From Betaproteobacteria bacterium (GTDB lineage: Bacteria; Pseudomonadota; Gammaproteobacteria; Burkholderiales; Ga0077523), in NCBI GenBank assembly GCA_016125475.1, contig WGLR01000023.1:1-64000 (forward strand): DNA of 64,000 nt, given 5' to 3'. Below, piece by piece: positions 34,432 through 47,464 of the stretch. Made by a program: the position numbers and the translations under genes. Within the stretch, counting starts at the first letter, position 1. Each line of letters starts with the position of its first letter. Below the pieces are notes generated by a model. The model had not been told where the DNA came from, did no database searches, and worked only from the letters and a program-made list of their open reading frames with translations.

Positions 34432-36378
34432 GTGACCCGATCCAACGACCCGACCTTTCGCCGGATGCCTGAATCGACTTTGGAAAGCCAGCCGTCACGC
34501 GGCTGGCGCGCAGGCGCGCTGCCCCATGCGCGCTCGGACCGGACCTACATCCTCGCCGCAATCGCATTCGCCACGGTCTACGCGCTCGCGGGGCTCGTGG
34601 GCCACGATCCCTGGAAGCAGGACGAGGCCTACGTGTTCGGTGGCATCTACCATATCCTCCAGACCGGCGACTGGGTGGTGCCGCACGTCGCGGGCGAGCC
34701 GTTCATGGAGAAGCCACCGCTCTACCATCTGGTGGCGGCCGCGCTTGCGCATGTCTTCAGCCCCTGGCTCACGTTGCACGACGGTGCGCGCCTCGCGAGC
34801 GGTCTGTTCGTGGGGGTTTCCTTCCTGAGCATCGCGTGGGCAGCGAGGGAACTCTGGGGGCGGCGGGCGGCCGTCCAGGGGGTCGTGCTCGCGATCGCGA
34901 CGGTGGGGTCGCTCGTGGAATCTCACCTGATAAATGCCGACGTCGCGCTCATGGGAAGCATTGCAGTCGCCGGCGCGGGTTTCGTCGCATGCGGGAGCGG
35001 GCGCCGGTACGGCGGCCTTGCCGTGGGCCTGGGTGCCGGCATGGGATTTCTCGCGAAAGGGCTGCTCGGCCCGGGGGTCGTCATGGTCACGGCCGCAGCG
35101 CTGCCGGTGGTTTCGAGTCAATGGCGTACCACCGCGTACCGCCGCCAGATGTCGTTCGCGCTTCTCGCCGCACTCCCCTGGCTCGTGATCTGGCCGGTCG
35201 CGCTCCATGCACGTTCGCCCCGGCAGTTCGGAGTCTGGTTCTGGGACAACAACATCGGCCGATTCCTCGGGTACTCGGTTCCGTCCCTCGGGGCCGCTCA
35301 CGAGCCATGGCTCTGGACGGAAACCTATCCCTGGTTCCTGTTTCCGGTCTGGATCTTCGTCGTTGCCCAGCTCTGGCGCCTGCGCAGCCGGTGGCGCGAC
35401 TTCGTGCCGCTGCACGGCCTGGTCGTCATGATCGTCGTGTTCATGGCCGTTCTGGCAGTTTCCGCGACAGGCCGTTCGCAGTATGCGATGCCGATCGTTC
35501 CGCTGGCGGCGATGATCGGTGCCGGCGCCGTCGGGAGGGAGCCACGGTGGGTGGATCGCACACTGGCCACGCTCGGCGTGGTCTTCGGATCCGTGGCCAT
35601 CACGGGCGTCGTCTACGTCTGGTGGCACATGGTCTCGACCGGGCGCGCGCCCGAGTGGGCGTGGCTCGTCGCGTTGCTCCCCGAACGGTTCCCGCTGCAC
35701 GTGACCCGCCCGGCCCTCGTGACGGTGACCCTCGTCATCACGGCATGCCTGGGTTTCATCCACGCTGCCCGTGACACCGCCGGCAGGGGGTTGCGCGTGT
35801 GGGCGGTGTCGCTCACGCTCGTGTTCGGCCTGTTCATGACGCTCTGGGGGCCGTGGCTGAACGGCGCCAAGAGCTATCGGGCCATGTTCGACGGTTTTCC
35901 TGTCGCCGTTGCGGAGAGCCGCGAGTGTCTGGCGAGCGAAGGATTCGGCGAGTCGGAACGCGCGATGCTCGACTATTTCCGGCATGTCGTGACCATGCGT
36001 CGCGAGGTTGCGAACACATCGGAATGCGGCGCTCTGCTCGTGCAGCGCACACGCAACGATCCGCCGGCGGCACTGTCCCCGGACTGGCGTCTCGTCTGGA
36101 ACGGTCACCGGCCCGGAGACCGGCGGGAACTTTTCGAATTGTTCGTGCGCGACGGACTGCAGTCGGTGCGGCGTCCGTTCGGTCGCACGCCGCACCGGCT
36201 GACGAACGAAAAGGCGAGCGTGCGGGCCGGAGTGCATGCCCGTGTGTCCATCGTGCGTGCCGCGCATCCCGCATCATCCGTGGACGACGCAGCGTCGACG
36301 CGCATGGTCGTCGCCTCGGGCGGCCGTCGCGCCCGAATGGACGGGCTTACTGCGCCGGCTGCAGCCGGACGACGGTGA
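34432..36378 (+). CDS. ArnT-like lipid-carrier glycosyltransferase (GT83/PMT family)
   Basis: A 648-residue inner-membrane glycosyltransferase of the GT-C fold with about 11-12 helices. The first periplasmic loop has the catalytic-type acidic motif QDEAYVFGGIYHIL and the substrate-handling MEKPPLYHL, as in ArnT. It should transfer a sugar from a polyprenyl carrier to a lipid or glycan. The GTG at 34432 is kept; an ATG at 34465 (MPESTLES) is an alternative start with a poor site. Its last 32 bases overlap the end of the convergent CusF gene. Confidence 0.78.
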   Translation: MTRSNDPTFRRMPESTLESQPSRGWRAGALPHARSDRTYILAAIAFATVYALAGLVGHDPWKQDEAYVFGGIYHILQTGDWVVPHVAGEPFMEKPPLYHLVAAALAHVFSPWLTLHDGARLASGLFVGVSFLSIAWAARELWGRRAAVQGVVLAIATVGSLVESHLINADVALMGSIAVAGAGFVACGSGRRYGGLAVGLGAGMGFLAKGLLGPGVVMVTAAALPVVSSQWRTTAYRRQMSFALLAALPWLVIWPVALHARSPRQFGVWFWDNNIGRFLGYSVPSLGAAHEPWLWTETYPWFLFPVWIFVVAQLWRLRSRWRDFVPLHGLVVMIVVFMAVLAVSATGRSQYAMPIVPLAAMIGAGAVGREPRWVDRTLATLGVVFGSVAITGVVYVWWHMVSTGRAPEWAWLVALLPERFPLHVTRPALVTVTLVITACLGFIHAARDTAGRGLRVWAVSLTLVFGLFMTLWGPWLNGAKSYRAMFDGFPVAVAESRECLASEGFGESERAMLDYFRHVVTMRREVANTSECGALLVQRTRNDPPAALSPDWRLVWNGHRPGDRRELFELFVRDGLQSVRRPFGRTPHRLTNEKASVRAGVHARVSIVRAAHPASSVDDAASTRMVVASGGRRARMDGLTAPAAAGRR

Positions 36379-36667
36379 GGCGGCCCTTGACCTTGTCGAC
36401 GGCGATGCGGATGGCGTCACCGGGCTTCACGCCTTCGAGCATCTTCGGGTCCGCCACGTGGAAGACCATGGTCATGCCGGGCATGTCGAGGTTGGGAATG
36501 TCGCCGTGACGCAGCGTGAGACGACCCCGGCCGGTGTCGACCTTCTTCACCTGGGCGTCGACCCACGGCAGCGAGGCCTGCGTGCTGGCCGTGTCCTGCG
36601 CGGCGACGGCCGACGCAACGGAGCCGAGAGGGAGTGCGAGTGCGAGTGCAAGTGCGATGTGCTTCAT
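36347..36667 (-). CDS. cusF: CusF-like periplasmic copper/silver-binding protein
   Basis: This 106-residue protein has a signal peptide (residues 1-23, ending AVAA-QD) and a CusF-type small OB fold with [18 protein letters not shown] near residues 50-67. It has the His and the two Met of the metal site. The residue equivalent to E. coli CusF Trp44 is Met here; this LDMPGMTM form is known in other betaproteobacterial CusF proteins. It would pass Cu(I)/Ag(I) to the pump. Last gene of the operon; its ATG overlaps the cusA stop (ATGA), with AAGGAGG upstream. Confidence 0.85.
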
Positions 36668-39600
36668 GGTGCCTCCTTGGAAAGGATCGGGGTGGGTGAG
36701 GAAACGGTGGCGTCGCCGTCGGCGTGTCGTGGCCGGCGGCGCCGGTGCATGAGCAGGAACGCGGCGGGGATGACCAGCATGGACAGCAGGGGCGCGGAGA
36801 TCATGCCGCCGAGCATCGGGGCCGCGATGCGCTGCATGACTTCGGAGCCCGCGCCGTGTCCCCACATGATCGGGAAGAGTCCCGCGAGAATGACCGCCAC
36901 GGTCATGGCCTTGGGCCGCACGCGCATGACGGCGCCTTCGTGAATGGCGGCGTGCAGCACCGAGCGGGCGTCGCCGTTCGCCGCGAGGGTCTGGCGTGTC
37001 CACGCCGACTTGAGGTAGATGAGCATCACCACGCCGAACTCCGCGGCTACGCCGGCCAGCGCGAGAAAGCCCACTGCCGTCGCGACCGAGAACGCGTGAC
37101 CGAGCGCCCACACGAGCCAGATGCCGCCGACCAGCGCGAACGGGATCATCACCATGAGCAGCAGTGCCTCGCCGGCACTGCGCAGCGTGAGATACAGCAG
37201 CAGGAAGATGATGCCGAGCGTGACGGGGGTCACCATCTTCAGCCGGGCCGATGCACGCTCCAGATACTCGAACTGGCCGGCCCAGGACACCGAATAGCCG
37301 GGAGGCAGTGCGACGTCCCGCGCCACGATCCCCTGCATGTCCGTCACCGCCGAGCGCAGGTCCCGCCCGCGCAGGTCCACGTAGACCCACCCGGACAGCC
37401 GCGCGTTCTCGCTGCGATACATCGGGGGGCCGTCCTGAACCGTGATCCGCGCGACGTCTCCGAGCTGGATGCGCGCACCCATCGGCGTCAGGATCTGCAG
37501 GGCCCTCAGTCGGGGCACGGAGTCGCGAAGTTCGCGCGGATAGCGGACGTTGATCGGAAACCGGCTGCGGCCCAGCACCATCTCGCCGACGTTCATGCCG
37601 CCCACCGCGGTCTTCACGACGGACTGGATGTCGTCGACGTTGAGTCCGTAGCGGGCCGCCGCGGCACGGTCGATGTCGATGTCGAGGTATCGCCCGCCCG
37701 TCAGACGTTCGGCGAGGGCCGAGGTCACGCCGGGGACGCCTTTCACGACGGACTCGATACGCGCCGTCAGACGGTCGATCTCCGCGAGTTCCGGGCCGGC
37801 CACCTTGATGCCGACCGGGCTCTTGATGCCGGTGGCGAGCATGTCGATCCGGTTGCGTATGGGTGGCACCCAGACATTAGAAAGACCTGGCACCCTGACG
37901 GCGCGATCCAGTTCCTCGACGAGTTTGTCCGGCGTCATGCCGGGCCGCCACTGGTCACGCGGCTTGAAGCGGATCGTGGTCTCGAACATCGTGAGCGGAG
38001 CAGGATCCGTCGCCGTGTTCGCGCGCCCTGCCTTGCCGAACACCGACGCCACCTCGGGAACCGTCTTGATGAGCCGGTCCGTCTGCTGGAGAAGCTCGGA
38101 CGCCTTGGATGTCGAGACGCCCGGCAGCGTGGAGGGCATGTAGAGCAGGTCGCCTTCGTCGAGGGGGGGCATGAACTCGCCGCCGAGGCGCGTGAGCGGA
38201 TAGATCGTCGCCGCGAGCACGAGCGCCGCGACGACGAGTGTCGACACCGGGAAGCGGAGCACGAGATTCAGAACGGGCTCGTAGATCCGGATCAGGAAGC
38301 GGTTCAGCGGATTCGTCTGCTCCGCGGGGATGCGGCCCCGGATGAGGTAACCCATCAGCACTGGCACGAGCGTGACGGCGAGCCCGGCCGCAGCCGCCAT
38401 CGCGTAGGTCTTCGTGAACGCGAGCGGCGAGAAGAGTCGTCCTTCCTGCGCCTCGAGCGTGAAGACCGGCAGGAACGAGAACGTGATGATGAGCAGCGAG
38501 AAGAAGAGCGCCGGACCGACTTCCTCACTCGCGCGCGCGACGAGCGACCAGCGTTCGTCCGGTGCGAGCGGCCGGTCCGGATGGGCGTGGCGAGCGGCCT
38601 CCAGGTGCTTGTGCACGTTCTCGATCATCACGATCGCCGCATCCACCATGGCGCCGACGGCGATCGCGATGCCGCCGAGCGACATGATGTTCGCGTTGAC
38701 GCCCTGGTAGCGCATCACGATGAACGACGCGAGCACGCCGAGCGGGAGCGACACGATCACCACGAGTGCGGAGCGCACGTGCAGCAGGAAGGCCAGGCAG
38801 ACCAGCCCGACGACGATGAACTCTTCCTGAAGCTTGTCGCGCAGATTCGAGATCGCCCGTTCAATGAGCCGCGACCGGTCGTAGGTGGTGACGATCTCTA
38901 CGCCTTCCGGGAGGCTGCGTTTCAGTTCGTCGAGCTTTGCCTGGACCGCACGGATCGCCGAGAGCGCATTCTTGCCGGAACGCAGCACGACGACGCCCCC
39001 GGCTACCTCGCCTTCGCCGTCCAGTTCGGCGATGCCCCGACGCATTTCGGGACCGACCTGCACCCAGGCGACGTCACCGAGCGTGACGGGGACACCGGCG
39101 GCGGTGGTCTTCAGCGGAATCGCGCGGATGTCCGCGAGATTGCGGAGGTATCCCCGTGACCGGACCATGTACTCGGCTTCACCGAGTTCGACGGTGGCGC
39201 CGCCGGCCTCCTGGTTTGCGCGTCTGATGGCGTTCACCGCCTGAGCGTGCGTGACGCCGTAGCCGAGCAGGCGGTCGGGTCTCAGCACGACCTGGAACTG
39301 CCGGACCATGCCGCCGATGCTCGCCACCTCGGCGATGTCGGGCAGCGCCTTCAGTTCGTACTTCAGGAACCAGTCCTGGATCGCACGCAGTTCTCCGAGG
39401 TCGTGACGTCCGCTTCGATCCACGAGCGCGTACTGGTACACCCAGCCCACGCCCGTCGCGTCCGGGCCGAGGGAGGCCTTCGCGCCTTCCGGAAGCTGGG
39501 ACTGCACCTGGTTCAGGTACTCGAGGACGCGCGAACGGGCCCAGTAGAGGTCCGTGCCGTCCTCGAACAGCACGTACACGTAGGAATCGCCGAAGAACGA

Positions 39601-39855
39601 GTAGCCCCGCACGGTCTTCGCACCCGGCACCGACATCATCGTCGTCGTGAGCGGATACGTGACCTGGTTCTCGACGATCTGCGGAGCCTGCCCCGGATAC
39701 TGCACGCGCACGATCACCTGCACGTCGGAGAGATCGGGAAGCGCGTCGAGTGGCGTGTGCAGCATCGACCACGTCCCCCACGCGGCGAGCGCGACGGCAC
39801 CGAGCAGGACGAGCACGCGGTTCGTGATCGACCAGCGGATGATCCAAGCGATCAT
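36664..39855 (-). CDS. cusA: CusA-type heavy-metal RND efflux pump
   Basis: The 1063-residue inner-membrane RND transporter has two helix bundles with two periplasmic loops. The fourth-helix motif [19 protein letters not shown] places it in the HME4 group, which exports Cu(I) and Ag(I), and supplies the proton-relay Asp and Glu. The N-terminus is the usual [13 protein letters not shown]. It should form the tripartite pump with CusB and CusC. The ATG at 39855 overlaps the cusB stop; a frame extending to 41691 is only the antisense-shadow continuation of cusB in another frame. Confidence 0.95.
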
Positions 39856-41612
39856 GGCTTCGCTCCGTTGCGGTCGACGATCTCGACGTGCGTGAGTTCC
39901 CACTCGCCGTCGCCGGTGTCCTTCATGGAGAACTTCACGCGGTCGCCGACCTTGAGGCCGTGTGGAACGACGCCCGCCGGAGCGATGAACGGCATCGTCA
40001 TGGCCGGCCACTTGAGCGACGGGATGGGCTCGTGCGTGAGCGTGAGTTCCCCGTCCGCGATATCGTCGACGGTTCCGACGCCGTGTGGCCCGGCTGCCGC
40101 GTGCTGCGTCCCGGTGTCGCGCACGATCTCGATGCGCGTGAGTTCCCACTCGCCGTCGCCGGCGTCCTTCATCGAGAACTTCACGCGGTCTCCGACCCTG
40201 AGGCCGGGCGGTACCACCGCGGCCGGCGCGATGAACGGCATCGTCATGGCCGGCCACTTCAGGGACGGGATGGGCTCGTGGGCGAGGGTGAGTTCGCCAT
40301 CGGCGATCTCGTCGACGGTTCCGACGCCGTGCGGTCCGCTGCCCGCGTTCGCTTCGTCGCGGGTGTCGAGACGGGGCAGCACGGACTTCAGGCTCGCTTC
40401 CGAGTCGATCAGGAACTGGCCGGAGACGACCACCTTCTGACCAGGTGAAAGCCCCTTGCGTATCTCGATTTCGCCGCCGGACTCCCGGCCCGTCTCGACT
40501 TCGACCGGCGCGAACCGGCCGTCCGCGTCCTGCACGATCACGACCGTTCGCCGACCGGTCGGAATCACGCTCTCCGAAGGGATCACGACGGAAGTCCCCG
40601 GGGAGGCCGGCTGGAGGCTCACCGACGTGATCATCCCCGGCTTGAGGAACTCGTCGGGATTGGGAAGATCGATGCGCAGCCTGAGCGTGCGTGTTTCCGG
40701 CGAAAGTTTCGGCAGGATCGTCTCGACCCGACCCTCCAGTTCGCGGTCCGGATAACCTGCCGGCCGCACTCTGGCGACCGTCGACGGCGAGACGTACTCG
40801 GCCGCCTGCTCGGGAACCTCCGCGTGGATCCAGACTCGGCGCAGGTCGACGACGCGCAGCAGCGTCATGCCGGGGGTGACCATCGCCCCCTCCCTGACGG
40901 CCAGCTCCGTCACGATGCCCGGCGCCGGCGCATGCAGAGTGAACCGCGACTGTGCCGTGTCCGCGGTCTCCGCCGCGCGCACCACGCTGTCGGGTATCGA
41001 CAGCAGGTCGAGGCGATGGCGCGCAGCATCCACGAGCGCGGCTTCGGCGTGTGCGCGCCGGAGTGCGAGGTACTCGTCCTGCGCGGCGACCCAGTCGGGC
41101 GCGAAGATCTCGGCGACGGGTTGTCCCGCCTTGACCGGATCGAGGTTCGCGCGGACGAACAGCTTCTCGACGTATCCGTTCACGCGCGACTGCACGACGT
41201 GCAGGGAACGTTCGTTCTCGGCGACCGTGCCGACCGCCTCGACGGGAGGGGCCAGGTTCGCGGTGCGTGCCTCCGCGGTCCGGATCCCCAGGATCTGTGC
41301 AACGTTCGGCGAAATCGCGACCCCTCCCGTCGTGGCTTCGTCCGCGTAGACCGGGACGAGGTCCATGTCCATGAAAGGCGACTTGCCGGGTTTGTCGAAC
41401 TTCTGTCCGGGCACCATCGGGTCGTGCCAGTAGAGCACCTTGCGGCCCGTTTCGGGATCGGTCATCGGGTCCTGCGCGGCGGTCGTGGCCCGGGGAGCAT
41501 CCGCGTTCATCAGCGGGCCGGCCTGATGCCGGCCCGCCCAGTAGCTCACCGCGACGGCGGCGACGAAGCCCGCGGAAACGAGGGTGATCGTGAGGAACTG
41601 TCGGGAGGTCAT
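39852..41612 (-). CDS. cusB: CusB-type periplasmic adaptor with two C-terminal CusF domains
   Basis: A 586-residue membrane-fusion protein with one N-terminal anchor helix (residues 5-25), then a YHS-like segment ([18 protein letters not shown]) typical of Cu/Ag adaptors, a hairpin region and beta barrel. Two CusF-like domains occupy residues about 425-496 and 507-578. Both contain [19 protein letters not shown] and share nearly all residues, encoded by DNA repeats of 246-bp period. Each keeps the His, Trp and two Met of the metal site. Start ATG at 41612, overlapping the cusC stop. Confidence 0.93.
39879..40092 (-). repeat. tandem CusF-domain duplication, C-terminal copy
   Basis: Nearly identical in sequence to 40125-40338 with the same 214-base length, starting 246 bases apart. 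Most differences are at third codon positions, which indicates duplication followed by selection on the protein. Confidence 0.85.
40125..40338 (-). repeat. tandem CusF-domain duplication, N-terminal copy
   Basis: Partner of 39879-40092. Both code for GPHGVGTVD-x-IADGELTL and the KFSMKD-x-GDGEWELT stretch; period 246 bases (82 codons). Confidence 0.85.
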
Positions 41613-42949
41613 CGAACGGTCTCCGGGGGTTGCGGCGCCGACGGTTCGATGCCGAGGAAGTTGAGACGGGCCCACGTGCGCGCGCGGTCACGCTGCAGCG
41701 CGAGGACCCTGAGGCGGGCGTCGACGTCCGCGCGCCTGGCCTCGAGCACGACGTTCAGCGAGGCCGAGCCGCCCCGGTATTCGGCGAGGAGCAGATCGAC
41801 GCGTTCCTTCGCGAGGGGAAGAAGCTGCCCCTGGAGTGTCGTGATCCGGTCGCCGAGCCGTCGCCAGTCCTCGAGGAGCGATCGCAGTTCGGCGCGATGC
41901 CGCGCCTCGGTGTCGAGCCGGCGCGCCTCGGCTCGGGCCAGGGCGGCCTGACTCGCGCGGATGTCCCGGTCCTGGCGGTCGGCGGCGAACAGCGGCAGCG
42001 GGACGCTCACGCCGAAGGACAGCATGTCCACGTAGTTCGGCCCGCGGTGCTGGTAGGTGACTTCCACGGTCCAGTCAGGGGTTTTTTCCCGCTCCGCGAG
42101 TTTCACGTCGGACCGCGCGAGCGCGACGTCCTGGGCGGCGACGGACAGTTCCGGGTGATGCGTGATCGCGTCGGTCACGTCGCTCATGTCGTGGGTCAGC
42201 CGGGAGGTGTCGGGGAGTTCTCCCGGCGGTCTCGACGCGTCGTCGCCGAGCCAGCGCGAAAGCGCCCGGACGGCAACCTGCTCCTGCTGGCGCGATGACT
42301 CGAGACGGTCTTCGGTCTCGACGAGCATCATCTCGACCGCCCGCAGCTGCGCGGCACTGCTGCGGCCGCTTGCGACGAGCGGCTGGAGCGTGCTGATCTG
42401 CAGCCGCAGTTCGGCGCGCAGGGATTCGATGAGGCGACTCGTCCGCGCGGCGTAGGCGCGGTCCAGCCACGTGGCGGCCACGGCCCTGCGCAATGCGGCG
42501 CGGATCGCACCCCTTTCGGCACGGTCCCGGGCCACCGCCTGCTCACCTCGTGCCTGCCGGAGGCGCCGCTTCTCCGGGTCCGTGATCTTCTGCATCACGC
42601 CGATGCGCCGCATCGTCATGACGTTGCTCGTGAGCGAGTAGCGCTCGTCGCCGCCGATCGGCATGTTGCTGACACCCGCGGTGAGGACCGGGTCCGGCAA
42701 CTGTCCGCTCGCGACGGCTCGTTCCCTCGCGGCGGACACGGACTGGTCGGCAGCCTCGAGTTCCGGCGAGCGTGCCTCGGCCATTTCCAGTGCGGCCCGA
42801 AAGTCGAGGGTGCCGTCGGTCTGCGGCCAGGCCGTGCCGGCCCAGAGCACGAGCACTGCGGCGAGCAGCGGGTGCCACCCGGATCTGCGACGAGAGATGG
42901 AATGGGAGCGGACGCTCGCACGCTGCGAACGCCCGGACGGGTTCTGCAT
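41609..42949 (-). CDS. cusC: CusC-type outer-membrane efflux channel (TolC family)
   Basis: A 446-residue outer-membrane factor. It has a signal segment ([14 protein letters not shown]) and two OEP repeats with long amphipathic helices ([77 protein letters not shown]). It lacks a lipobox, unlike E. coli CusC. It should cap the CusAB pump. It overlaps cusB by ATGA, so cusC, cusB, cusA and cusF are all coupled. Confidence 0.9.
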
Positions 42950-43017: not shown

Positions 43018-43425
43018 CTAGATGCGCAGGCGCCTGCTGAGTTGCAGGGGAGGAGGAGACGTCTGACGGAAGGCCGTGACCGCTGTCCAGCCGTCCGACG
43101 GCGCGGACGTGACGGGAAGGAGCGTCATCGCCCAGAGCGCGATCGTGACGGGTACGGCCGAGAGGTGCGCCGCGGGTGACTCCGTGGCGTTGGCCGCCTG
43201 CACGTTCTCGCAATGCTTCATGCACAGCGTCGAGCGTTGCGTGACGTCTTCCGTGCAGTGGTGATCCGCCGCCACCTCCATCGCGTGCGCGTGCGCGGTC
43301 GCGGCGGTGGTGTGGTGCTGCCCGCCCTGCGGGAGCGCACAGGCGTGCGACGCGAGCGCCCACTGCGAGAACAGCAGGCTCACGAGCACCACGAAAGCCG
43401 ACAATGTGCGACGGGAGCGTTTCAC
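43018..43425 (-). CDS. Cys/His-rich secreted protein leading the cus operon
   Basis: The 135-residue protein from a GTG at 43425 has a signal peptide ending ALA-SH near residue 25. It then has a Cys/His-rich region with HACALPQGGQHHTTAATAHA, HHCTED and LCMKHCENVQAA, a plausible copper- or silver-binding stretch, then a hydrophobic segment (VPVTIALWAMTLLPV). It lies 68 bases upstream of cusC on the same strand, so it probably begins the operon. A TATAGT candidate -10 box lies at 43490-43495. Similar small proteins precede cus genes in other betaproteobacteria, but their role is unproven. Confidence 0.65.
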   Translation of the reverse strand: MKRSRRTLSAFVVLVSLLFSQWALASHACALPQGGQHHTTAATAHAHAMEVAADHHCTEDVTQRSTLCMKHCENVQAANATESPAAHLSAVPVTIALWAMTLLPVTSAPSDGWTAVTAFRQTSPPPLQLSRRLRI

Positions 43426-45344: not shown

Positions 45345-47129
45345 TCAGAGCGAGTCGGCGCCGCGGAACCGCAGCGCGAGCACGGCGATGTCGTCCGTCC
45401 GGGGCGCGCTGCCCGAGAAGGTGACCACGGCGTCGACGGCGGCGTGCACGACATCGGTCGAGGACCCGCCCGATGCCGCGTCGAGTGTGGCGAGCAGCCT
45501 GACCGACCCGAACTGCTCGCCCGTTTCCGACTCGGCCTCGGTGACGCCGTCGGTGAAGAGCACCAGCACCGAGCCAGGCGGCAGCTGGACGTCCGTGCAC
45601 CGGAAACCGATGTCACCGAGGATGCCGACCACGGTGTTGCGCGCCACGTCGAGCGGGGTGAAGTCCTGCCCCGGGGCGCCCAGCAGTGCCGGGTTGTGAC
45701 CGGCATTCACGCACGAGAGCCGGCCGGTTGCCGTGTCGAGGACGGCGCAGAAGAGCGTCACGAAGAGCGAAGCCTCGTTCCGCTCGAACAGCTGCCGGTT
45801 CACGCGTTCGACGATCCTCGCGAGGGGCGCCACGCGACCGCCGCCGCGCCGGGTGGCTTCGGTACGCAGCAGCGTGAGCGCCCGCACCATGAAGAGCGCG
45901 GCAGACAGCCCCTTGCCGCAGACATCCCCGATCGTGAGGAACAGGTGGCGCTCGTCCAGGAAGAAGACGTCGTAGAAGTCGCCGCCGACTTCCTGCGCGA
46001 TGCGGATGGCGGCGGCGCAGTCGACATCGTCGCGATCCGGGAAGAAGGCCTCGGGGTTCGGCAGCATCCCGAGCTGGATGTCGTGCGCGACACGGAGGTC
46101 GCGCTGGAGCTGCTCGAGCGCGAGGGTCGCGCGCAGCTGTTCGACGATCCGTTCGGAGCTGCGTCGCACGCGGGCGGTCAGCACGCGCAGGAAGCTGCGG
46201 TTGACCGACTCGATGGGCAGCAGCCGGGTGAAGAGAGTCTGGCTGTCGACGAGCAGCACACGCGTGCCGGCCTCCGCCACGACGAATGCCGAAACGGGGT
46301 CGCCGTCGATCACGGACAGCTCGCCGACGAACCTGCCACGGTCGACGGGGACGTGGTCGCGCGAATCCAGCGTGCCGAGATGCACTCGAAGCCGGCCTTC
46401 CAGCACGAACGCGATGGCGTCGTTGCGGTCTCCCGGGCGCAGCAGGACCGTCTCGGTTCCGAATCGTGCGACCACGCATTTCGCTAGGAGCTGCTCGAGC
46501 AGTGCGTACGGCACGCCGCGGAACATCTCGAACTGCGCGAGGACGCCGGCGGCACGTCGGTCGGTACCGCTGCGCTCGTTGCCGCCCGTGGCCGTGCCAT
46601 CGGCACGACGCCAGGGGGCGTGCGACTCGGGGAACGCCTGCCGCCGGTCGGGGCCGCGCTCGACCTTCGGGCGCGACGCAGCCTGCGCGAGACCGGCGAC
46701 CTCGAATTCCAGCGTGGTGCGGTTGTGCCCGCCAGCGCGCTCGTACTCCCAGCCATCGCTGAAGCGCCGGACGAGTCTCAGGCCCCAGCCGCCGGGTGGG
46801 GCGTCCGGGCCGGGCGGAGGGGTCGTCGCGAGGTGTTCGCCGGGATCGAACGGACGGCCCGTGTCGAGGATCTCCAGTCGCACGCGTCGCTCTCCCTGCG
46901 AGAGCACGAGCTCGATGAGGTGGTCCCGCGACGGGGCTCCCGAATGGTCGAGGATGTTGGTGACGAGTTCGCCCGCACAGAGATCGAGGCGATACGTGTC
47001 GTCCGGCGAAAGCGAATGCGCGGATGCGAACGCGTGCAGCCAGTCGCTCACCGTCCTGAGGGAGGCTGGCTCGGGCGCGATGCGCAGCCGCTGCGGACTC
47101 GCGGCGCGCGGAAACGTGGCGCGGTTCAA
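45345..47129 (-). CDS. HATPase-cNMP-SpoIIE tri-domain partner-switching phosphatase
   Basis: The 594-residue protein combines three modules. An anti-sigma-type HATPase_c domain comes first (residues about 15-150; AGELVTNILDHSG, GWGLRLVRRFSDGWEYE), then a cyclic-nucleotide-binding-like domain (about 195-330; LRPGDRNDAIAFVLEGRLRVHLG), then a SpoIIE/RsbU-type PP2C phosphatase (about 355-594; GGDFYDVFFLDERHL, DVCGKGLSAALFM, FTDGVTEAE, TDDIAVLALR). It should phosphorylate or dephosphorylate the STAS partner. TTG at 47129 is taken as start, overlapping the STAS stop as TTGA; the longer ATG frame would run through the STAS gene. Confidence 0.82.
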   Translation of the reverse strand: MNRATFPRAASPQRLRIAPEPASLRTVSDWLHAFASAHSLSPDDTYRLDLCAGELVTNILDHSGAPSRDHLIELVLSQGERRVRLEILDTGRPFDPGEHLATTPPPGPDAPPGGWGLRLVRRFSDGWEYERAGGHNRTTLEFEVAGLAQAASRPKVERGPDRRQAFPESHAPWRRADGTATGGNERSGTDRRAAGVLAQFEMFRGVPYALLEQLLAKCVVARFGTETVLLRPGDRNDAIAFVLEGRLRVHLGTLDSRDHVPVDRGRFVGELSVIDGDPVSAFVVAEAGTRVLLVDSQTLFTRLLPIESVNRSFLRVLTARVRRSSERIVEQLRATLALEQLQRDLRVAHDIQLGMLPNPEAFFPDRDDVDCAAAIRIAQEVGGDFYDVFFLDERHLFLTIGDVCGKGLSAALFMVRALTLLRTEATRRGGGRVAPLARIVERVNRQLFERNEASLFVTLFCAVLDTATGRLSCVNAGHNPALLGAPGQDFTPLDVARNTVVGILGDIGFRCTDVQLPPGSVLVLFTDGVTEAESETGEQFGSVRLLATLDAASGGSSTDVVHAAVDAVVTFSGSAPRTDDIAVLALRFRGADSL

Positions 47130-47464
47130 CCGGCTGCGATCGTGTCGCGTGCCGAGTCGATGTCCACGCACATCGGCACCACCTGCCCGATGCCTGCGGT
47201 CTCGAGGACCTGTCGGCTCATGCCTTCCGGGACGACCAGTGCGATCCGGCCACCGCGCTGCATCTGGCTGCGTGCGGTCATCAGCAGCATGCGTATGCCG
47301 ATGGATGCGATGTACGGTACTTCGGTCAGGTCGATCAGGAACCGGCCGGTCCGGCTGGTGGTGAGAAACGAAAACTTCTGGTCGACCGCCTGTGTGCCCT
47401 CGAGATCCAGGCGTCCGCACAGCGCGACGACGGTGATCTCCCCCTCGAGAGTCTCATGCCTCAT
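47126..47464 (-). CDS. STAS-domain anti-sigma factor antagonist
   Basis: A 112-residue SpoIIAA-like protein. The IDLTEVPYIASIGIRML segment has Ser54 at the phosphorylated position. ATG at 47464 gives the usual single-domain length; the longer frame to 47542 has a low-complexity tail. It is the natural partner of the co-encoded tri-domain protein (overlap TTGA), with phosphorylation of Ser54 by its HATPase domain and removal by the PP2C domain as the likely cycle. Confidence 0.85.
   Translation of the reverse strand: MRHETLEGEITVVALCGRLDLEGTQAVDQKFSFLTTSRTGRFLIDLTEVPYIASIGIRMLLMTARSQMQRGGRIALVVPEGMSRQVLETAGIGQVVPMCVDIDSARDTIAAG

Follow-up and report, generated by a model that had tools for sequence, protein, structure and literature searches.

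The closest described systems are CusCFBA of Escherichia coli and SilDCBA of Cupriavidus metallidurans CH34. In E. coli, a CusA trimer binds six CusB adaptors (PMC6235853 and PMC3548706, in excerpts), and the excerpts of PMC6235853 also describe a three-Met metal site at the N-terminus of CusB (M21/M36/M38) and metal transfer between CusF and CusB. CusB and CusF are fused in one gene in 22 organisms, a fusion that puts the soluble-carrier role of CusF in question (PMC3548706, in excerpts), and SilB carries a C-terminal CusF-like domain (PMC4446572, in excerpts). The metal ligands of SilF are treated in the excerpted part of PMC10656224. The preliminary description of the present locus was thus right to regard a single CusB-CusF fusion as known, as the solved C-terminal domain of SilB (2l55) and the 22 fused genes both attest. 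The adaptor analysed here ends in two CusF domains, and it is real, ordinary in kind and unusual in copy number.

Gene organisation and the doubled CusF tail

The window, that is, the whole stretch of 64,000 nucleotides that was analysed, carries on its minus strand a small protein, an outer-membrane factor, the adaptor, a CusA-type pump and a free CusF, in this order and with gene ends that overlap by a few bases. The features are as follows.

36347..36667, minus strand: free CusF of 106 aa with a Trp-to-Met metal site (CusF_Ec, 90.4 bits)
36664..39855, minus strand: CusA-type RND pump, 1063 aa, with Met at 573, 623 and 672
39852..41612, minus strand: CusB/SilB-type periplasmic adaptor, 586 aa, from the ATG at 41612 to the stop at 39852; carries an HMBD, a HlyD core and a C-terminal pair of CusF domains
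39857..40102, minus strand: repeat unit 2 (distal), CusF domain 2; Pfam match 39882-40085; site H527 W535 M538 M540
40092..40115, minus strand: linker joining CusF domains 1 and 2, residues 500-507, predicted flexible (pLDDT <50)
40103..40348, minus strand: repeat unit 1 (membrane-core-proximal), CusF domain 1 and linker; Pfam match 40128-40331; site H445 W453 M456 M458
40341..40364, minus strand: linker ahead of CusF domain 1, residues 417-424, predicted flexible (pLDDT <50)
41349..41432, minus strand: HMBD segment, residues 61-88, with M66, M81 and M83 aligned to M21/M36/M38 of E. coli CusB
41609..42949, minus strand: outer-membrane factor (OEP family) in the CusC/SilC position
43018..43425, minus strand: small His/Cys-containing, secreted-looking protein, 135 aa, in the SilD position of C. 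metallidurans (weak similarity)

The core of the adaptor matched E. coli CusB (3ne5_B) over residues 31-422 with phmmer (E 2.9e-80), HlyD_D23 scored 227 bits against a cut-off of 30, and the structural model matched 3ne5_C in Foldseek (E 1.3e-26, TM 0.77 by target); the best 50 Foldseek matches of the whole model were adaptor cores only. The best-scoring NCBIfam model was that of CusB (PRK09783.1), but its 302.3 bits lie below the cut-off of 390, which indicates a SilB-like adaptor and not a CusB in the narrow sense; the CusF domains likewise score below the NCBIfam CusF cut-off. The methionines M66, M81 and M83 were invariant across a 61-sequence alignment, with spacings of 15 and 2 as in E. 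coli CusB. The pump scored 1331 bits with TIGR00914 (cut-off 701), and its Met 573, 623 and 672 lie in an ungapped stretch of the alignment with E. coli CusA (3t51_A), in which residues 573, 623 and 672 form the three-Met periplasmic site. The intact three-Met sites in the adaptor N-terminus and in CusA together point to a pump of the Cu+/Ag+ kind. The similarity of the small protein to SilD is weak (26% over 80 aa, E 0.002 for a single comparison).

The tail of the adaptor is a direct repeat (D1) of two 246-nt units at a spacing of 246, which are 85% identical and share 208 of their 246 bases. Tandem Repeats Finder reported the same period at 39877-40348 (1.9 copies, 0% indels, score 753), so that the 246-bp repeats of the preliminary description are borne out. 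The 38 mismatches leave the frame unbroken and introduce no gap, and therefore the two units are distinguishable and ungapped; 21 of them fall on third codon positions, compared with 8 on first and 9 on second positions (81 codons compared). CusF_Ec (PF11604) matched two stretches of the adaptor (E 7.7e-40 for the whole protein), and when placed singly it gave 71.6 bits for domain 1 and 72.2 bits for domain 2, both above the Pfam gathering cut-off of 27 bits. Thus, an adaptor at exactly 39852-41612 with two terminal CusF domains is present as first described. At E ≤ 0.001, the assembly of 48 contigs contains only three CusF_Ec matches, namely the two fused domains and the free CusF.

At the protein level, the fused domains are 90% identical over an aligned core of 52 residues and 91% identical over 64 codons, which agrees with their having been called near-identical. 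Alignment with 2qcp, 1zeq and 2l55 showed that the His/Trp/Met/Met copper site is complete in both; the two copies thus look functional, and the claim of two complete domains with metal-binding sites besides a separate free CusF gene also holds. Among solved structures, both come nearest to the C-terminal domain of SilB (2l55; E 2.5e-13 and 7.4e-14) and to CusF (2qcp/1zeq/2vb2). The free CusF is not alike: in the ungapped alignment of the H-x7-W-x2-M-x-M motif, Met replaces the metal-capping Trp to give His/Met/Met/Met, and the domain tree places it away from the fused domains, with the free CusF of a genus mate (G011) as nearest relatives. It had no match among solved structures at E 0.001, although Pfam CusF_Ec recognises it. 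W44M mutants of E. coli CusF have reportedly been studied; the term was not found in the text of the literature matches listed.

An AlphaFold2 model of the adaptor, run with 61 sequences, reached a mean pLDDT of 88.5 and a pTM of 0.55. Each CusF domain had a pLDDT of 93-97 per ten-residue block and both linkers stayed below 50, and the two domains are accordingly predicted to fold separately, like beads on flexible linkers; with a pTM of only 0.55, their relative placement is not fixed by the model.

Two other open reading frames in the window are recorded here apart from the pump. A 648-aa open reading frame at 34432-36378 has hydrophobic stretches and a coding-like base composition and gave no Pfam match at E 0.001, and 45345-47420 encodes a single protein that combines SpoIIE-type phosphatase, HATPase_c_2 and cyclic-nucleotide-binding domains.

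Tandem CusF domains in other genomes and on plasmids

A survey of copy number in CusB homologues, which the preliminary description had proposed, found two- to four-domain adaptors in other bacteria. CusF_Ec matched in 6 of the 12 genomes of the genus, which are also the 12 covered by the family-level search. The fused pair was seen in the source genome alone (G000, 1 of 12). A single fused domain is present in each of G005, G010 and G011, and in G001 and G004 the only CusF is a free one, the nearest adaptor of G004 being without a CusF domain. The nearest relative of the source adaptor, with a core 68-71% identical (L013/L229), lies on contig 345 of G011. This contig stops at 5742, just ahead of where the CusF part would follow (query residue 417), possibly because a repeat at this place interrupted the assembly.

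For wider samples, we used alignment models of the two-domain tail (A1, A2), because the PF11604 survey of the order returned the strongest matches only and tandem domains score lower. Eight candidates were scored per genome, so the resulting counts are lower bounds. At order level, matches at E ≤ 1e-15 came from 115 of the 399 genomes sampled, and among the eight candidates per genome a match spanning both halves was found only in the source genome (1/399). Of the 398 genomes in the phylum sample, 45 matched; two-domain adaptors occur in at least 18 of these and four-domain adaptors in at least 3, which makes at least 21 genomes with a tandem, counting the source. At class level, 82 genomes out of 369 matched at E ≤ 1e-12 and at least 10 have two domains, the source genome and G413 being counted in the phylum sample as well. 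Besides the source, this amounts to at least 25 genomes with two-domain adaptors and at least 3 with four; further two-domain adaptors were found in three MAGs (L014 from Massilia, L015 and L016 from Burkholderiales).

Seven named plasmid adaptors, picked from search listings, were counted individually. Two CusF domains are present in Alteromonas macleodii pKD01 and Pseudoalteromonas xiamenensis, three in A. macleodii pKD02 and Salinimonas iocasae, and four in the alphaproteobacterial plasmids of Rhodovulum sp. P5, Phaeobacter inhibens P88 and Labrenzia sp. THAF187b (L257-L259); SilB of C. metallidurans, included as a control, gave one. By description or topology, six of the seven records are complete circular plasmids, and the Pseudoalteromonas record is linear. 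These tandems were found with the tails of L173 and L222 as queries; with the two-domain tail of the source, the best 30 of 254 plasmid records were single domains matched twice, with spans of at most 390 bp. As for the three-domain adaptors (L256, 2364-4382; L260, 2364-4364), all sites in pKD02 are His/Trp/Met/Met, and the third domain of Salinimonas has lost ligands.

The idea that the architecture is unique to the source genome is refuted by these two- to four-domain adaptors of other genomes and plasmids. The preliminary view that a tandem pair is less known than a single fusion stands for the literature searched and fails for genomes, in which pairs, triples and quadruples occur in several proteobacterial groups. 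Tandem or multiple CusF adaptors were not found in the literature searched, which was mostly free of subscription papers, and an earlier mention elsewhere is possible; the excerpts of PMC8478169 contain Alteromonas CusB hits and make no mention of CusF arrays. Public records name the array proteins only "efflux RND transporter periplasmic adaptor subunit". Thus, next to the known single fusion, the adaptor array is a recurrent pattern that seems to be undescribed in the literature searched.

In a tree of 282 domains (quick search, about 70 columns), domains 1 and 2 of the source adaptor are sisters with an SH-aLRT of 97, and no other collected domain is more than 56% identical to either of them. 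Four pairs are both sisters in the tree and most alike internally, those of the source, L014, L161 and L174 (SH-aLRT 97, 93, 91 and 86), the last two coming from one genus. Sisterhood together with the highest mutual identity suggests that no fewer than four of the duplications happened independently, unless gene conversion has made the copies alike. The pair of L188 is also a sister pair at 40% identity, and that of L185 is 89% identical internally and falls in a clade of three. Older, shared duplications are represented by L015/L016, the L169-L220 group, L152/L210 and the four-domain adaptors.

Ligand sites, constraint and alternative explanations

The ligand survey covered 223 loci, from which domain-sequence duplicates were removed; many loci had been fetched for being tandem, so its counts are not frequencies. 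Single-domain adaptors accounted for 132 distinct proteins, two-domain adaptors for 32 and four-domain adaptors for 3. Every two-domain adaptor keeps a complete proximal site, and in 11 of them, including the source adaptor, both sites are His/Trp/Met/Met. The distal site has lost one or more ligands in 18 of the 32 and changed from Trp to Met in two (L015, L016), and in one more (L188) both sites carry the Trp-to-Met change. A second active domain is therefore not required everywhere, and this decay in other lineages, as read from sequence, warns that the second domain is not always a metal carrier. Eleven adaptors (L169, L172, L173, L177, L179, L182, L183, L212, L216, L218 and L220) share a ligand-free distal CusF-like domain with an R..RA..M/L/K motif, and since such a domain is kept in many genomes, it may have a non-metal role. 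The four-domain adaptors L221, L222 and L223 (G529, G414 and G595) have the sites HWMS/T, HWMM, HMMM and HMMM, and the same mixed ligand sets are found in the plasmid adaptors L257-L259.

A general rule by which fused domains are of the Trp type and free CusF of the Met type was also considered and fails when the loci of a single search are taken by themselves (Fisher p 0.26), where the fused domains were 57 HWMM and 13 HMMM (1 unreadable) and the free ones 30 and 3 (1 partial). In the mixed set, whose loci were chosen in ways favouring some site types, 116 HWMM and 15 HMMM were found among 132 fused one-domain adaptors, and 32 HWMM and 36 HMMM among 69 free CusF. The combination of a Trp-type fused domain with a Met-type free CusF is thus kept only as a trait of the source locus and its genus mate G011.

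We consider it likely that the source protein is the adaptor of a CusCBA/SilCBA-type Cu+/Ag+ pump whose fused CusF chaperone was duplicated in tandem and in frame within the lineage, forming a tethered array that enlarges metal capture. Between domains 1 and 2, dN/dS was 0.09 over 64 codons (bootstrap 0.02-0.21) and 0.13 over 70 codons, at a dS of about 0.4-0.5. A ratio of about 0.5 would be expected if one copy were neutral and the other constrained, and the observed value of about 0.1 therefore suggests that both copies are constrained, barring gene conversion. Hence, neither fused copy appears to drift freely, although gene conversion could also lower dN.

The leading alternative is a neutral or transient duplication: slippage or unequal recombination would have produced an extra domain that the flexible tail tolerates without benefit, until it is lost or decays. 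The loss of distal ligands in 18 of the 32 two-domain adaptors fits such a course, as does the rarity of the pair (1 of 12 genomes in the genus; a match across both domains in 1 of 399 genomes at order level, at eight candidates per genome). However, the 18 cases of decay trace to a small number of lineages and so to few events, three- and four-domain arrays exist, and the dS of this size combined with low dN/dS and four intact ligands in each copy speaks against it. Other young pairs are also low (L014 0.13, L174 0.07, L161 0.15, L185 0.21), and the pair of L186, at 60% identity, gave 0.29. We therefore regard a neutral duplication as unlikely for the source adaptor.

Less probable still is a division of labour, in which one domain binds and passes metal and the other serves for docking to a partner or for metal sensing, the two being non-equivalent although both bind. 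The uneven fate of the two positions would agree with it, as the proximal site is complete in all 32 and the distal one departs from H/W/M/M in 21 of 32 adaptors (18 lost, two Trp-to-Met, and L188), and the four-domain adaptors combine a Met-poor site with a Trp-type site and a pair of the Met type. In the source adaptor, by contrast, the domains are 90% identical and the sites are the same, which gives no sequence sign of specialisation. The preliminary description named assembly error as the refuting case. Such an artefact, for instance a chimera of two strains or of two paralogues that turned one domain into two, is very improbable, for although the assembly is at contig level (48 contigs) and the closest adaptor relative is cut by a contig end exactly before the CusF region, the 38 mismatches in 246 bases with an unbroken frame, the three CusF matches in the genome with no donor paralogue among them, and the recurrence of this domain arrangement on finished plasmids and in assemblies of other genomes argue against it.

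Proposed role and comparison with known systems

Under the favoured reading of a duplicated, tethered chaperone, each tethered CusF would capture periplasmic Cu+ or Ag+ and pass it by ligand exchange to the N-terminal three-Met site of an adaptor, either its own or that of a neighbour in the adaptor hexamer. The loaded three-Met site would then load CusA or switch it on, and the free Trp-to-Met CusF would serve as a soluble carrier of its own. A doubled domain would place more loaded chaperones at the mouth of the pump and thereby raise the capture rate or the buffering capacity. If the E. coli ratio of six CusB per CusA trimer applies here, there would be four tethered CusF per CusA protomer and twelve per pump; the figure of three CusF modules per pump protomer in the preliminary description does not follow, the number of free CusF being unfixed. 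The gain from doubling could lie in capacity, in capture rate or in neither, and improved metal delivery is a plausible benefit.

More tentatively, we speculate that the CusF copy number serves as an evolutionary dial, with two- to four-domain arrays arising by repeated in-frame tandem duplication, the copies being equal and active at first, as in the source adaptor, and one of them later decaying or changing its ligands, so that the amount and affinity of metal at the pump mouth are set. Work on how metal is shared among CusF, CusB and CusA mostly relies on E. coli, where a single soluble CusF is present. For testing the effect of tethering and chaperone dose on efflux, natural adaptors with zero to four tethered CusF domains offer a ready series, which spans pairs of equal, probably active sites as in the source, pairs with a dead distal copy and mixed Trp/Met arrays. 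For annotation, it matters that the array adaptors are publicly labelled as adaptor subunits only.

With E. coli CusCFBA, the source locus shares the three-Met site of CusA, the three-Met N-terminus of CusB and the CusF fold, but in E. coli CusF is a separate protein only, and the alignment with CusB stops at query residue 422. The marine multi-CusF adaptors resemble the source in their tandem C-terminal CusF domains and adjoining CusA-type pump; unlike the source, they have two to four mostly diverged domains, and those with two have a distal copy that has lost ligands; the three domains of pKD02 all keep His/Trp/Met/Met. SilB of C. metallidurans CH34 (SilDCBA, pMOL30) has the same HMBD, HlyD core and C-terminal His/Trp/Met/Met CusF as the source adaptor, in the same gene order of small protein, outer-membrane factor, adaptor and RND pump. 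However, no free CusF is listed in the 7.4-kb stretch of SilDCBA examined, whereas the source operon has one, and SilB has one CusF domain against two in the source adaptor, which in this respect departs from the single-domain SilB architecture.
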